DNA of 64,000 nucleotides from Brachybacterium ginsengisoli. Lineage in GTDB: Bacteria; Actinomycetota; Actinomycetes; Actinomycetales; Dermabacteraceae. This document shows positions 21,671-62,581 of this stretch, in pieces. The stretch lies in the NCBI RefSeq assembly GCF_002407065.1, contig NZ_CP023564.1, positions 62,001 to 126,000 of the forward strand. Reading direction: 5' to 3'. The position numbers and the translations under genes were made by a program. Numbering within the stretch: the first letter of the stretch is position 1; every line of letters starts with the position of its first letter. The notes below the pieces were generated by a model. That model saw nothing but the letters and a program-made list of their open reading frames with translations. It made no database searches and was not told the origin of the DNA.

Positions 21671-21722
21671 ACGGCATTGTGCGCCTGGCTTCCACTCGTG
21701 GAAGCCAGGCGCGCAAAGCCGT
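21671..21722. repeat. Long palindrome, type A, copy 1
   Basis: Arms of 25 nt (21671-21695 and 21698-21722) around a 2-nt loop; the core reads TTGTGCGCCTGGCTTCCAC and its complement with a few mismatches. It sits 82 bp after uxuB in a convergent gap, so it may help terminate both sides. It shares GTTGTGCGC..CTTCCA with copies at 22879, 26201 and 62532. A stretch of CCTGCCCGCC short tandem repeats follows at about 21745-21805. Confidence 0.85.
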
Positions 21723-22732: not shown

Positions 22733-22878
22733 GGCCCGACGCTAGGGAGTCTTCGCCGCCCTCGCCGACCATCGGCTGGCGCTGTGGATGACAGGCCTCT
22801 GTGGAGGATCGGTCAGATCCGCCAGCGCCGAAAGCTTGGTGCGGGGCCCGCCGTCACTCCACTCACGTTCCCTGCGCT

Positions 22879-22932
22879 GACGGCGTTGTGCGCCCTACTT
22901 CCCTGTGTGGAAGCAGGGCACACAACGCCGTC
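22879..22932. repeat. Long palindrome, type A, copy 2
   Basis: Arms 22879-22902 and 22909-22932 match at 22 of 24 positions around a 6-nt loop. The outer part is GACGGCGTTGTG; the core matches the other type A copies. It lies between the DUF559 gene start and the response-regulator gene end, so it is on the other flank of the DUF559 gene relative to copy 1. Confidence 0.85.
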
Positions 22933-26200: not shown

Positions 26201-26254
26201 GACGCCGTTGTGCGCCTGGCTTCCAGTCGTGGAAGCCAGGCGCACAACGCCGTT
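26201..26254. repeat. Long palindrome, type A, copy 3
   Basis: Arms 26201-26225 and 26230-26254 around GTCG. The core GTTGTGCGCCTGGCTTCCA is the clearest type A match. It lies 50 bp 3' of the FGGY kinase gene end, between that gene and the CPBP operon promoter, so it may mark the end of the kinase transcript. Confidence 0.85.
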
Positions 26255-41720: not shown

Positions 41721-43613
41721 ATGACGATGACCCGCCGTACGCTCGCCACCCTCTCCGCCGCCGCCGTGCCGATCCTCGGCCTGGCCCCGGCCGCCTGGTC
41801 CGCCCCGCCCGGCTCCCTGTCGGCCGGCGGTGACGCCTCCCGAGCGCTGTCCCGGGCGCGCGCCGCCGCCGAGGTGCTCATGGCTGATTACGACCCGGAC
41901 AAGGCCTGGTTCCCCTCGAGCTGGTGGAACTCCGCCGTCGCCCTCCAGACCATCGGCGACTACATGCTGCGCAGCGGGGATCTCCGCTTCCTCGACCAGC
42001 TGGAGCGCACCTTCGAGCGCAACAAGGGCCCCTTCCCTGCCGGGGAGCTCTCCGGCGACGAGATCTACGGGAGCTTCTGCAGCCGCGCGATCGACGACTC
42101 CGGCTGGTGGGCGCTGACCTGGATGCGCGCCTACGACCTCACGGGCGAGCAGAAGCACCTCGACATGGCCGTGACCATCGGCGAGTTCATGAGCGACTTC
42201 TGGGACCCGAGCACCTGCGGCGGCGGCATCTGGTGGGACGAGGAGCGCACCTACAAGAACGCCGTCACCAACGGGCAGTGGATCCGCCTGACCGCCCAGC
42301 TCCACGCCCGCATCCCCGGCGACCGGCAGTGGCTCGAGCGCGCGCTCGAAGCCTGGGAGTGGTACGCCCACGGGGCGATGATCGGCGAGGACGGCCTGCT
42401 CAACGACGGTCTCACCGACGCCTGCGAGAACAACCACGACCGCGTCTACACCTACAACCAGGGCCTCGCGATCGGCGGCGCGCTCGAGCTGTGGCGCGCC
42501 ACGGGCGATGAGACCCAGCTGGAGCGGGCGCGCTGCTTCGCCGACTCCGCGCTGGCCGAGGGCGCCCTCGTCGAGGACGGCATCCTGGTGGAGTGGACCG
42601 ACGCGCTCGGCGAGTCCACGAACGACAACCACAAGCAGTTCAAGGGCATCTTCCTGCGCTACCTCATGGACCTCGCCGACACGACGGGGGACGCACGCTA
42701 CCGGGAGTTCGTGGCCCGCCAGGCCGCCTCGATCTGGGAGCGCGACCGCACCCTCGACGGCCGGCTCGGGGTGCGCTGGAGCGGTGAGGAGTCGGCGGAC
42801 TCCCCGAACGTCGCCGACTGGCGCACGCAGGCCAGCGCCCTCAGCGCCCTGATCGCGGATCTCCCGGCCGACGGGGCGGACAGCTCCCTCACCGCCGCGC
42901 TCACCCAGCCGTCGGTCGTGATCCCCGACGGCGAACCCACCGCGAGCAGCCTGCAGCTGGAGGTCACCGCGACCACCGCAGCGGCGCGGAAGCTGGTGGT
43001 GCACCTCGAGGTGGAGGCGCCCGACGGGTGGATCGTGGACCTGGCCTCCCGGATCCGGCTCGACCTCCCCGGCGGCGACGCGGTCGTCGCGGTGGAGCTG
43101 CCGCTGACGGTGACGATCCCGCCGGACGCTGCCGACGGCGTCCATGAGATCAGCGTCCGCGCCCGCACCTCGGCCCAGCAGGACTTCACCGCCGGCGCCC
43201 GCGTGGTGGTGGCTCGCGAGATCGCCTTCGCCGGCGGCACCGAGGACGGCCCCTGGCTGTGGGAGGACCGGGGGTCGGGCGTGACCGACGAGCCCGGCCG
43301 CTTCGCCGACGGGACCAGCTCCTTCACCTACCGCTTCCCCTTCCCGGCCGGCACCACGACGGCGCAGGCCACCGTGACGATCTCGAACCAGTTCGTGGTC
43401 GAGCTCAGCGCCGACGGCTCGGAGTGGACCTCGGTGCTGCGCGAGACGGAGCAGATCCGCGACGCCTCCAACCGGGGCGACCGCACCCTCGACCTCACCC
43501 CCTATCTCGGCGGCGAGGACAAGGACGTCTACCTCCGGGTCTCCGACGCCTTCGCCGAGGACGGCTGGGGTGGGCAGGTGCACCGCGTCACCGCGGAGCA
43601 CAGCGCCGGCTGA
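41721..43613 (+). CDS. Secreted GH76 family alpha-1,6-mannanase-like protein
   Basis: A 630-residue protein. The N-terminal signal peptide (TRRTLATLSAAAVPILGLAPAAWSA) is Tat/Sec-like. The GH76 (alpha/alpha)6 domain spans about 35-390; the catalytic Asp pair is in SRAIDDSGWWALTWMRAYDL (D125, D126), and GGGIWWDEERTYKNAVTN, DGLTDACENNHDRVYTYNQGLAIGGALELWRATG match the family. Two beta-sandwich parts follow: an immunoglobulin/alpha-galactosidase NEW3-like part (about 405-500) and a C-terminal part with WEDRGSGVTDEPGRFADG. It probably cuts alpha-1,6-mannan of yeast or of actinobacterial lipomannan. The stop is only 13 bp from the convergent exonuclease gene. Confidence 0.88.
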   Translation: MTMTRRTLATLSAAAVPILGLAPAAWSAPPGSLSAGGDASRALSRARAAAEVLMADYDPDKAWFPSSWWNSAVALQTIGDYMLRSGDLRFLDQLERTFERNKGPFPAGELSGDEIYGSFCSRAIDDSGWWALTWMRAYDLTGEQKHLDMAVTIGEFMSDFWDPSTCGGGIWWDEERTYKNAVTNGQWIRLTAQLHARIPGDRQWLERALEAWEWYAHGAMIGEDGLLNDGLTDACENNHDRVYTYNQGLAIGGALELWRATGDETQLERARCFADSALAEGALVEDGILVEWTDALGESTNDNHKQFKGIFLRYLMDLADTTGDARYREFVARQAASIWERDRTLDGRLGVRWSGEESADSPNVADWRTQASALSALIADLPADGADSSLTAALTQPSVVIPDGEPTASSLQLEVTATTAAARKLVVHLEVEAPDGWIVDLASRIRLDLPGGDAVVAVELPLTVTIPPDAADGVHEISVRARTSAQQDFTAGARVVVAREIAFAGGTEDGPWLWEDRGSGVTDEPGRFADGTSSFTYRFPFPAGTTTAQATVTISNQFVVELSADGSEWTSVLRETEQIRDASNRGDRTLDLTPYLGGEDKDVYLRVSDAFAEDGWGGQVHRVTAEHSAG

Positions 43614-43626
43614 GGGCCGGGGCCGG

Positions 43627-44847
43627 TCACGGCAGGTCGTAGTCGACGACCACGGGCGAGTGGTCCGAGAGCCGTTGCCCGCGGAACTCCCGGTCGACCA
43701 CGGCCTGCCGTGCCGTGCGCGCGAGACCGGGCGTGGCCAGGTGGTAGTCGATCCGCCAGCCCGTGTCCTTGGTGAAGGACTGCCCGAGCCAGGACCACCA
43801 CGAGTAGGGGCCGTCCTCCTCCGGGTGGAGGCTGCGCACCACGTCCACGAGCGTGCGCGGGGAGAGCTGCTGACCGAACCACTCCCGCTCCTCGGGCAGG
43901 AAGCCGTCGTTGCTCTGGTTGCGCCGCCAGGCGGCGAGGTCCTGCCGGGTGTGGGCGATGTTGAGATCCCCCATCAGCAGGAGCTCGCGCCCGTTCGCGG
44001 CGGCCGCGCGGCGCGTGCTGGTCAGGTAGCGGCTGAACGCGGCGAGGAAGCCCATCTTGCGCGCGTACTTCGCTCCGCCGTCGGGCGCCTCCCGCATCCG
44101 CTCCGGGCGCTGCAGGTGAGCGGGCAGACCGCCCTTCGGGAGGTAGAGGCAGGCGATGGTCACGGGGGCGTCCGCAAGGTCCACCTCGAGGTAGCGGCCC
44201 TCCGCGGCGAAGGGGCCGAGCCCGCGGGAGAGCGGCACGTGGTCGGGGGCGTCGACCGAGATGAGCGGCGCTCCGGGGGCTGCAGCCGTTCCGCCGGCTC
44301 CCGCCGTTCCGCCCGCTGCCGCCGTTCCGCCGGCTGCCGGGCCTGTCGCGCCCGCAGCACTGCCAGCTCCCGACGTCGGGTGGCGAGCGGTCGTGTCACG
44401 GAATGGCGTATGGCGACGAGAGGTGGCTATATCGCCACCTCTCGTCGCCATACGCCCTTCCATGACGCCGCCGTCCGGTGCGACCCCCGGTTCCGGCGAG
44501 TCCGCGGGCCCCGGTGAGCCCGCCGGGGCCGCCGAGACCGGCTGGCCATCCGCGCCGCCCGCGCCGTCCGTGCCGCCCGGCGCGCCGAGCAGGGCGGTGC
44601 CGCTCCAGGTCCGCACCGCCGCTGGGGGCTCGCGGGTGAGCACCGCGACGCCGTTGCGGCCGGGGAGCGTGCCGGTCTCGAGGGCCACGTGATAGTCGCC
44701 GAAGGCGGCGTCGGGCAGCTTGTCCGCCTGCGCCCGGACCTCCTGGAGCGCGACCACGTCGCAGTCCCGGTCGGCGAGCCACTCCCCGAAGCCCCGGCGG
44801 TGCGCGGCGCGGATCCCGTTGACGTTGGCAGAGGCGATGCGGAGCAT
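43627..44847 (-). CDS. xthA: Exonuclease III (XthA) with a 110-residue internal insertion
   Basis: A 406-residue AP endonuclease/exonuclease; usual length is about 260-270. Core motifs are all present: LRIASANVNGIRAA at the start, VVALQEVRAQ (catalytic Glu), RNGVAVLTR, LLLMGDLNIAH and the end RIDYHLAT...LSDHSPVVVDYDL. Between residues about 85 and 195 there is a low-complexity stretch rich in Gly, Ala, Thr and Pro; residues 128-151 are encoded exactly by a 72-bp palindrome (44395-44466). The insertion lies in a loop of the fold between beta strands (after the AVRTWSG strand), so the enzyme may stay active. It is a DNA repair enzyme acting on abasic sites. Start ATG 44847. Confidence 0.88.
   Translation of the reverse strand: MLRIASANVNGIRAAHRRGFGEWLADRDCDVVALQEVRAQADKLPDAAFGDYHVALETGTLPGRNGVAVLTREPPAAVRTWSGTALLGAPGGTDGAGGADGQPVSAAPAGSPGPADSPEPGVAPDGGVMEGRMATRGGDIATSRRHTPFRDTTARHPTSGAGSAAGATGPAAGGTAAAGGTAGAGGTAAAPGAPLISVDAPDHVPLSRGLGPFAAEGRYLEVDLADAPVTIACLYLPKGGLPAHLQRPERMREAPDGGAKYARKMGFLAAFSRYLTSTRRAAAANGRELLLMGDLNIAHTRQDLAAWRRNQSNDGFLPEEREWFGQQLSPRTLVDVVRSLHPEEDGPYSWWSWLGQSFTKDTGWRIDYHLATPGLARTARQAVVDREFRGQRLSDHSPVVVDYDLP
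44395..44466. repeat. 72-bp palindrome inside xthA, exactly 24 codons
   Basis: Arms 44395-44427 and 44434-44466, 31 of 33 matching, loop of 6. It begins at a codon boundary of xthA and is exactly in frame, encoding VMEGRMATRGGDIATSRR then HTPFRD. Because it is palindromic, the opposite strand reads almost the same peptide. Flanks are short tandem Gly/Ala/Thr codon repeats. Confidence 0.9.
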
Positions 44848-44879
44848 CCCCCGAGGTTACGGCCCCGGGGTTCGTACCG

Positions 44880-44990
44880 CCCAGCCCGACGGCCGGCCCG
44901 CCAGGCCAGCTCGACGGCCGGCCCGACGGCCGGCTCGCCGGGCCAGCCCAACGGCCGGCCCGCCAGGCCGGCCCGCCGACGCGACCGACC
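44880..44990. repeat. GGCCGGC-rich tandem repeats between xthA and the next gene
   Basis: About four copies of CGACGGCCGGCCCGCCA-like units, with variants, fill most of the 148-bp gap upstream of xthA. No promoter can be picked out within it. Confidence 0.65.
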
Positions 44991-44995
44991 GGCCC

Positions 44996-46063
44996 TCAGC
45001 CGATCGCGTCGCCGATGACGGGGCCCTCCGTGTTGGGCTTCCAGCCCAGCGCCGGCGCGACGTGCTCGGCGAAGCTCTGCAGGATGTTGAGGTTGATGTC
45101 CACCCCGGCCTGGCTGGGGATCGTGAGCAGCACCGTGTCGGCGGACTGCACGGCGGCGTCGGCCTTCAGCTGCTCGATGAGCTGGTCCGGCTCCCCCGTG
45201 TAGGAGCGGCCGAAGGTGGAGCGGGTGCCGTCGATGATGCCGATCTGGTCCGAGTCCTCGCCCGGGCGCGTGCCGAACAGCATGCGGTCCTGCTCGGTGA
45301 CGATCGGGAACACGCTGCGCGAGACGGACACCCGCGGGGTGTGGGTGTGCCCGGCCTCGCGGAAGGCGGTGCGGAAGGCGTCGATCTGCTCGGCCTGGAG
45401 GTCGCCGAAGGCGGCGCCGGTGGCCTCGGTGAGCAGGGTCGAGCTCATCATGTTCAGGCCCTGCTGCCCGGTCCACTCGGCGGTGCCGCGGGAGCCAGCG
45501 CCCCACCAGATGTGGCGCAGGAGGTCCTCGGACTGCGGCTCGATCGCCAGCGGCGCGTGCGGCGAGGCATCGGACATGTACGGCTGCGCGGCCGCCCGGG
45601 TCATCGGCTTGCCCTGGATGGCCTGCAGGAACACGTCGAATTTGGCGCGGGCGATGTCCGCGCCGCGAGGGTCGGTCGAGCCCGTGTAGCCGAAGGACTC
45701 CCAGCCCCGCTCCGCCGCCTCGGGGGCACCGCGGGAGATGCCGAGCGCCACGCGGCCGTCGGCGATGAGGTCGAGCGCGGCGGCCTCCTCGGCGAGGTAG
45801 AGGGGGTTCTCGTAGCGCATGTCGATCACGCCGGTCCCCACCTCGATCCGCTGCGTGCGCGCGGCGACGGCGGAGAGCAGCGGCATGGGGGAGGCCGCCT
45901 GGCGGGCGTAGTGGTGGACGCGGAAGTACGCACCGTTCACGCCCAGCTCGTCGGCGCCGACGGAGATGTCGATCGCGTCGTGCAGCATCTGGCGGGCGCT
46001 CAGGCCGCCCTGCGCGGGGCTGCCGCCGTAGTGACCGAAGCTGAGGAATCCGAAGGCTCGCAT
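44996..46063 (-). CDS. LLM class (luciferase-like) flavin-dependent oxidoreductase
   Basis: A 355-residue TIM-barrel flavoprotein of the bacterial luciferase family: FGFLSFGHYGG at the N-terminus, GVNGAYFRVHHYARQAASPMPLLSAVAARTQRIEVGTGVIDMRYENPLYLAEEAAALDLIADGRVALGISRG in the middle and SYTGEPDQLIEQLKAD near the end. These use reduced flavin and oxygen or F420. The substrate is unknown. It is transcribed away from the ADH gene, 69 bp apart on the same strand. Confidence 0.87.
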   Translation of the reverse strand: MRAFGFLSFGHYGGSPAQGGLSARQMLHDAIDISVGADELGVNGAYFRVHHYARQAASPMPLLSAVAARTQRIEVGTGVIDMRYENPLYLAEEAAALDLIADGRVALGISRGAPEAAERGWESFGYTGSTDPRGADIARAKFDVFLQAIQGKPMTRAAAQPYMSDASPHAPLAIEPQSEDLLRHIWWGAGSRGTAEWTGQQGLNMMSSTLLTEATGAAFGDLQAEQIDAFRTAFREAGHTHTPRVSVSRSVFPIVTEQDRMLFGTRPGEDSDQIGIIDGTRSTFGRSYTGEPDQLIEQLKADAAVQSADTVLLTIPSQAGVDINLNILQSFAEHVAPALGWKPNTEGPVIGDAIG

Positions 46064-62531: not shown

Positions 62532-62581
62532 CGACGTTGTGCGCTGTGCTTCCAGCAGTGGAAGCACAGCGCACAACGTCG
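62532..62581. repeat. Long palindrome, type A, copy 4
   Basis: Arms 62532-62554 and 62559-62581 (23 nt, perfect) around GCAG. Core GTTGTGCGCTGTGCTTCCA. It lies after the gdhA terminator. Confidence 0.88.

Follow-up and report, generated by a model that had tools for sequence, protein, structure and literature searches.

How does the gene of a conserved nuclease come to carry a long palindrome in its reading frame, and what keeps the two arms of the palindrome alike? The question is raised by xthA of Brachybacterium ginsengisoli, in the window analysed here (a stretch of 64,000 nucleotides), for which a preliminary description had proposed an element that can insert without breaking a gene. 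We find that the palindrome is one copy of a real and apparently undescribed family of palindromic repeats. The explanation we favour, with a probability of roughly two in three, is that an old, non-autonomous family of repeats of about 76 bp has one copy tolerated in a dispensable loop of XthA.

An in-frame palindrome in a loop of XthA predicted to be disordered

The preliminary description had reported a 72-bp palindrome lying in frame in xthA, and its coordinates, the complementarity of 31 of 33 arm positions around a 6-nt centre, its length of 24 codons (codons 128-151) and its first base on a codon boundary were all reproduced (Table 1). The arms can be extended to 43 nt at 86%. When 20 windows simulated under a Markov-1 model were scanned for palindromes with 33-nt arms and spacers of 4, 6 or 8, the best of them paired at 21-23 positions, against 31 of 33 in xthA. 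Folded as RNA, the 86-nt stretch of xthA around the palindrome gave -73.6 kcal/mol, where shuffled sequences averaged -29.3 (z = -13.2).

The host protein has the features of the exonuclease III family. Pfam Exo_endo_phos (PF03372) spans residues 5-396 (E 5.3e-26), the best relative in the PDB is 2jc5, and N8, E36, D294, N296, D395 and H396, which we take to be active-site residues with catalytic roles, are invariant in 34 aligned sequences. They are present on both sides of the loop, and the core catalytic motifs flanking the palindrome are intact, as had been noted before. AlphaFold, run with a 34-sequence alignment, assigned pLDDT values below 50 to residues 93-183, the means over ten residues being 82-98 outside residues 91-190; the palindrome thus lies in a loop region, in agreement with the earlier placement, and the loop is predicted to be disordered.

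Measured from AVRTW to GRYLEVDL, this low-complexity and fast-changing loop has 140 residues, against 39-69 in 21 non-carrier relatives, and is therefore about 70-100 residues longer than in those congeners. It is indeed enlarged, as first described (there by about 110 residues, relative to usual XthA), and the palindrome supplies just 24 of the additional residues. In the other genomes with a copy in xthA the loop measures 97 (G036), 89 (G009), 73 (G027) and 173 (G001) residues. The comparison was selected for genomes in which one ORF holds both halves of xthA (26 of 28, loops of 39-173 residues), so that G002 and G003 are missing from it. In G003 the two halves lie in two ORFs of different frames, with an apparent frameshift at the end of the loop, which could be a sequencing error.

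Table 1. Features discussed in the text (positions in the window, or given with the name of a locus)
Feature	Location	Strand	Basis or remark
xthA, exonuclease III / AP endonuclease family, 406 aa	43627..44847	-	
Palindrome-holding loop, xthA codons 93-183, predicted disordered (pLDDT < 50)	44299..44571	-	AlphaFold
Near-perfect 72-bp palindrome, 24 in-frame xthA codons (VMEGRMATRGGDIATSRRHTPFRD)	44395..44466	-	
Full 76-bp copy of the repeat family	44393..44468	.	covariance model R1, 92.3 bits
Luciferase-like monooxygenase (Bac_luciferase), upstream of xthA	44996..46063	-	
Second palindromic family, about 50 bp	21671-21722, 22878-22931, 26202-26253, 62532-62581		
Copy continuing into tandem repeats	L016 1502-1650		own genome, 833.6 kb
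Copy-enclosed stretches near phoH	L003 1498-2916, L186 1578-3255, L224 1495-2984, L236 1506-2946		
ORF with copy before ABC permease domain	L193 600-2036		G001
xthA in two ORFs	L045 1382-2361		G003
ORFs overlapping copies, Pfam domain beyond the copy	L193, L231, L169, L222, L227, L168, L204, L156, L178, L179		

A family of palindromic repeats in Brachybacterium

Searching the 86-nt stretch against its own genome (3.95 Mb, one contig) with blastn, we found a best further copy that is 92% identical over 72 nt. The search returned whole palindromes, other matches being of 14-17 nt at E values of at least 1.9, and no separated palindrome ends. We then described the family by a covariance model (R1), made from an alignment of 24 copies of four genomes, the xthA copy itself being one of the 24; among the matches listed for R1 the xthA copy has the highest score. 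The own genome has 34 strand matches, which amount to 17 places, and 17 copies were extracted. The element therefore exists in further genomic copies, as the earlier idea of an inserted element implied.

At E <= 0.01 the family is present in 24 of 38 Brachybacterium genomes, the own genome included; 14 have no match, and in G009 there are two places, of which one is a weak match. Nine genomes from five other genera of Dermabacteraceae, searched with stricter filters, gave no match, and neither did the plasmid and phage collections searched for the repeat or viral contigs searched with one exact pattern of it. Among the genomes tested, the family is restricted to Brachybacterium. The unit of about 76 bp is symmetric, with ends resembling GTGTC...GACAC, and some copies (G025) start with CCGTC. 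A second subfamily, with arms CGGAGCGGCATATAGCGGAC..CTCTGCC, occurs in G012 and G010 (L221, L237, L238, L274). Its G012 copies are nearly perfect as palindromes (30-35 of 38 pairs), one query placed it at nine sites in G010, and it is perhaps the youngest subfamily.

Two further kinds of repeat were seen. One copy of the main repeat in the own genome (L016) continues into tandem repeats of about 17 bp, which resemble the right end of the adjoining copy. The window also holds a second palindromic family of about 50 bp, with the core CGTTGTGCGC...CTTCC and a 5-nt block that varies, and does so in both arms. One query (E <= 0.01) found it at six places, three of them inside the window; these six, like the window copy at 62532, are no further than 183 kb from dnaA.

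Positions of the copies

For an account of their positions, 121 copies were extracted as a sample, fewer than all found, and the ORFs beside them were called by GC3 only. The copies prefer the 3' ends of genes: the gene ends adjoining the 116 sampled copies outside xthA were 3' in 111 cases and 5' in 44, and the median distance from a copy to the stop codon of the adjoining gene was 125 bp. Where an ORF was called on both sides (n = 51), 23 copies lay between convergent, 27 between co-directional and one between divergent ORFs. Except for that in xthA, the copies of the own genome lie outside coding-like ORFs or, in L010 and L011, overlap no more than the 5' part of such an ORF.

A clear coding location was found for only the five xthA copies among the 121. 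Eleven other sampled copies overlap a coding-like ORF; in ten of these (Table 1), and in a valS-like case, a Pfam domain lies beyond the copy, which suggests that these copies are in upstream sequence, N-terminal extensions being also possible. In one of them (L193), the copy is in frame in an N-terminal stretch of low complexity that precedes an ABC permease domain. It is the likeliest exception among the copies outside xthA, and possibly a second coding insertion with an uncertain start codon. The proposal that the element is specially able to enter genes and leave them intact is thus unsupported as stated, since one host gene and a disordered loop do not show such an ability. As far as the evidence goes, the coding copy in xthA is a tolerated loop insertion.

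Many positions are shared between genomes. Homologous flanks in common with a copy of another genome were found for 72 of the 121 copies, under permissive thresholds that may have admitted some paralogues. Copies at shared positions often stand at similar distances from the flanking genes across genomes, and in four of ten aligned pairs a single alignment crosses the copy uninterrupted. Near phoH, in four genomes (the own genome G000, G001, G011 and G021), two or three copies enclose a variable stretch of 1.1-1.5 kb. The gene between the twin copies near phoH, in the own genome an MTES_1575 REase-like ORF, was considered as a possible mobilising factor; the corresponding stretch of G001 has no Pfam family in the one frame tried.

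No Y1_Tnp (PF01797) RAYT transposase was found in any of the 38 Brachybacterium genomes, in a search that was positive in five of 14 control genomes, E. coli included; the repeat is therefore not a REP with a standard RAYT. For two copies of G012 (L238, L237), comparison with G010, G034 and G005, whose flanks are too diverged, gave neither a clean empty site nor a target duplication, so that the insertion itself is something we infer.

The two arms change together

The covariation of the arms was analysed in 75 copies out of the 121, chosen so that no genome gave more than six, with two additional copies from xthA. The arms differ greatly between genomes yet pair in 81.1% of cells. Double-sided changes occurred at 29 of 35 pairs, against a shuffle mean of 23.6 (1 of 500 shuffles), and the covariation score was 0.317, against 0.145 +/- 0.008 in shuffles (0 of 500) and at most 0.108 in slid versions. 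The shuffles ignore the relatedness of the sequences and the slid versions keep it; since slid versions are usually outscored by any structure that was itself derived from the sequences, the covariation of the 75 copies is somewhat overstated. The five xthA copies alone also covary (0.283 against 0.134, 0 of 500), with double changes at 12 pairs where 7.3 are expected (3 of 500).

Copies of one genome resemble each other. In 47 orthologous pairs, from 20 groups hand-picked from the shared-flank list, mean identity was 0.725, against 0.77 for copies of the same genome and 0.68 for other cross-genome pairs. Orthologous pairs exceeded the other cross-genome pairs in 32 of 47 cases and fell below same-genome copies in 31, indicating that homogenisation is partial and that some shared positions may be repeated insertions.

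These patterns could also be expected if the palindromes were functional DNA sites of a genus-specific protein acting in chromosome organisation or segregation, with the xthA copy as one site; Noc and SlmA offer an analogy. A drifting binding specificity would make the sites of one genome change together, which would agree with the greater closeness of same-genome copies, with positions common to different species and with a symmetric covariation that has no RNA signature (see below). Further, 77 copies of seven genomes lie nearer to dnaA than a uniform distribution predicts (mean relative distance 0.367, as a fraction of the way to the opposite point; KS p = 3.6e-4), with ten of the 77 in the terminus-most third. 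For this test 16 of the 17 own copies served, and the sizes of five genomes were rounded; the bias is uncorrected for shared positions, and slower loss near the origin may cause it. On the other side, a single dimeric site would hardly need 76 bp, 14 of the 38 genomes have no match, and G009 has no more than its two places.

The neighbouring genes speak no more clearly for such sites. Pfam families in the genes flanking the own copies were PhoH, fumarase, prolyl oligopeptidase, SSB, HAD, ABC transporter, class I tRNA synthetase, metallophosphatase, solute-binding protein, AlkZ-like glycosylase, aldolase, DUF2516, FGE-sulfatase, MFS, Exo_endo_phos, aldo/keto reductase, FecCD and MerR; four scanned flanking proteins, plus one from G001, have no family. 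A common regulon was considered and set aside, as no theme could be established, though three of the genes are DNA-related (SSB, AlkZ-like and a second Exo_endo_phos). We judge functional sites of this kind to be unlikely. A broader proposal, which we likewise regard as doubtful, is that the genus has a set of palindromic sites, at positions that are shared and biased towards the origin, and that their arms co-evolve as a set in each genome, through either a drifting DNA-binding chromosome factor or a repair process that rewrites one arm after the other and copies after each other; one such site would persist in the coding sequence of a DNA repair nuclease.

The xthA locus across the genus

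xthA was recognised (match at 1e-40) in 28 of the 38 genomes, and the locus was compared across these 28. A scan of 29 loci found the repeat inside xthA in five of the 28 genomes (the own genome, G036, G009, G027 and G001), so that the insertion varies among relatives and is not, as the preliminary description had allowed it might be, carried by all of them. The five copies occupy the same loop in the same frame, reading ..GDIA.. at the centre. In three other genomes (G004, G025 and G021) a repeat lies 48-158 bp upstream of xthA, between it and the homologue of the luciferase-like monooxygenase gene; 20 have none in xthA or just upstream. No locus has the repeat both inside and upstream, some loci ending at contig ends.

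As a tree of the xthA core had a weak backbone, it was replaced by a midpoint-rooted tree of rpoB and rpoC from 32 genomes (six of the 38 are absent, and G027 was placed by rpoB alone). In this tree the carrier G027 is sister to the non-carrier G013 (100), the carrier G009 is sister to the non-carrier G023 (100), and B. ginsengisoli stands elsewhere, apart from both. The carriers therefore belong to separate lineages, and the insertion is not obviously recent. Parsimony over 24 genomes with equal costs required five events from an ancestor without the repeat, against seven for a root that carried it; when a gain was made to cost three times as much as a loss, a root with the repeat became slightly cheaper (11 against 12). 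Outside the palindrome, too, G009 and G001 have sequence in common (RPA, E or D, DS.P.PSAPGTA), which favours a common origin there.

Such recurrence might reflect a specific function of the repeat at xthA, in regulating exonuclease III or in being regulated by it. xthA is the neighbour most often shared in the sample, and the repeat lies inside it or just upstream in eight of 28 genomes, in separate lineages and never at both places in one locus. But the survey was uneven, with 28 genomes covered for xthA and an incomplete sample for other sites, and even so other sites recur in up to five genomes; with nothing at the locus in the 20 remaining genomes, we find such a role improbable.

Pairing in DNA or RNA

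A bidirectional terminator or a 3' UTR stabiliser, selected as an RNA hairpin, would suit a position close to stop codons, the single copy between divergent genes and the great stability of the fold. Selection on RNA is nevertheless hard to reconcile with the mismatches. On the sense strand of the 27 co-directional copies, G-T and C-A mismatches number 52 and 53; on the coding strand of xthA they number 5 and 15, and over all 121 copies, with arbitrary strand, 205 and 252. That G-U does not exceed C-A on the sense strand suggests that the cause of the pairing lies at the level of DNA. Further, a terminator inside xthA would cut its mRNA, no terminator-like site was found in window positions 43500-45300, and in Rfam all 24 matches to the 201 bases around the xthA copy (locus L031) are below the gathering score, most of them to microRNA hairpins. 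An RNA role is thus quite improbable. That the palindrome was born in place by template switching, unrelated to other repeats, is scarcely credible even in a low-complexity, fast-changing loop, being contradicted by the 92% identity to another copy over 72 nt and by the top model score.

Discussion

We therefore return to an old repeat family with one copy tolerated in XthA. The copy may have entered the loop once, in an ancestor, and been lost repeatedly, or it may have entered a few times. It would be tolerated if the loop is dispensable and the family keeps the frame used mostly open; this frame is open in 197 of 242 family readings, the other two in 128 and 52. The palindromy could be maintained in the DNA itself, with one arm correcting the other through a hairpin or a template switch, and/or through turnover among the copies of one genome. 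Against this explanation, the origin-proximal bias and the shared positions would fit a functional site as well, and in G003 xthA is split between two frames at the loop.

Among the open-licence papers listed by our searches there was no report of the family, which is weak evidence of absence; PMC12306157 names some actinobacterial genomes, and Brachybacterium does not occur in its main text. In print we found coding palindromes for Rickettsiales, for scattered REP insertions and for nematomorph mitochondria.

The Rickettsia palindromic elements (RPEs) are repeats of 105-146 bp that lie between genes and, in frame, in conserved protein genes, where the host protein tolerates them (PMC2229807; see also PMC2635572). 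The Brachybacterium repeat is likewise a dispersed palindromic family with an in-frame copy in a protein gene (17 own copies, one in xthA). It differs in having one clear host gene in 121 sampled copies, where RPEs are inserted in 19 reading frames (PMC2229807), and in its covarying arms, whereas RPEs are said to lose their repeat identity over time (PMC6649704).

REPs are palindromes found at many sites, mainly 3' of genes and between convergent or co-directional genes; some lie inside genes, many of these being for DNA synthesis or repair, and some of those genes are the only coding sequences struck in a species (PMC3733652). The Brachybacterium repeat agrees with REPs of the GTAG and CGTC superfamilies in its intergenic position 3' of genes and in its preference for convergent and co-directional neighbours. 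It differs in its symmetric unit of 76 bp, with CGTC near some ends (G025) and not as a one-sided tag, whereas REPs have 20-40 bp, are tagged by GTAG or CGTC at one of their ends and frequently have a RAYT in their vicinity (PMC3733652); Y1_Tnp is absent from all 38 genomes here. Because REPs are described in DNA repair genes, the choice of xthA is worth testing.

Bacterial MITEs (ERIC, Correia/NEMIS, RUP) are, like the Brachybacterium repeat, small, stem-loop-forming and non-autonomous, and some are fused in frame to ORFs (PMC2229807); for the Brachybacterium repeat, the own genome and the two G012 copies showed no parent transposon, target duplication or TA ends. Nematomorph mitochondria have coding inverted repeats whose arms also change together, for which template switching has been proposed (PMC6649704), but these are described within mitochondrial genes and not as members of one dispersed, related family.

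On the best reading, the Brachybacterium repeats would work like RPE or REP elements, the likeness being one of behaviour. Coding palindromes had already been known from Rickettsiales, as had REPs from genes of DNA repair; new here are an actinobacterial family, the missing usual transposase and the covariation of the arms across the genus, and it is this genus-wide covariation without a Y1/RAYT transposase that is unusual. The family offers a natural experiment on the tolerance of a conserved enzyme for a repeat in one of its loops, and on whether the symmetry of a palindrome is kept by DNA repair or by selection.
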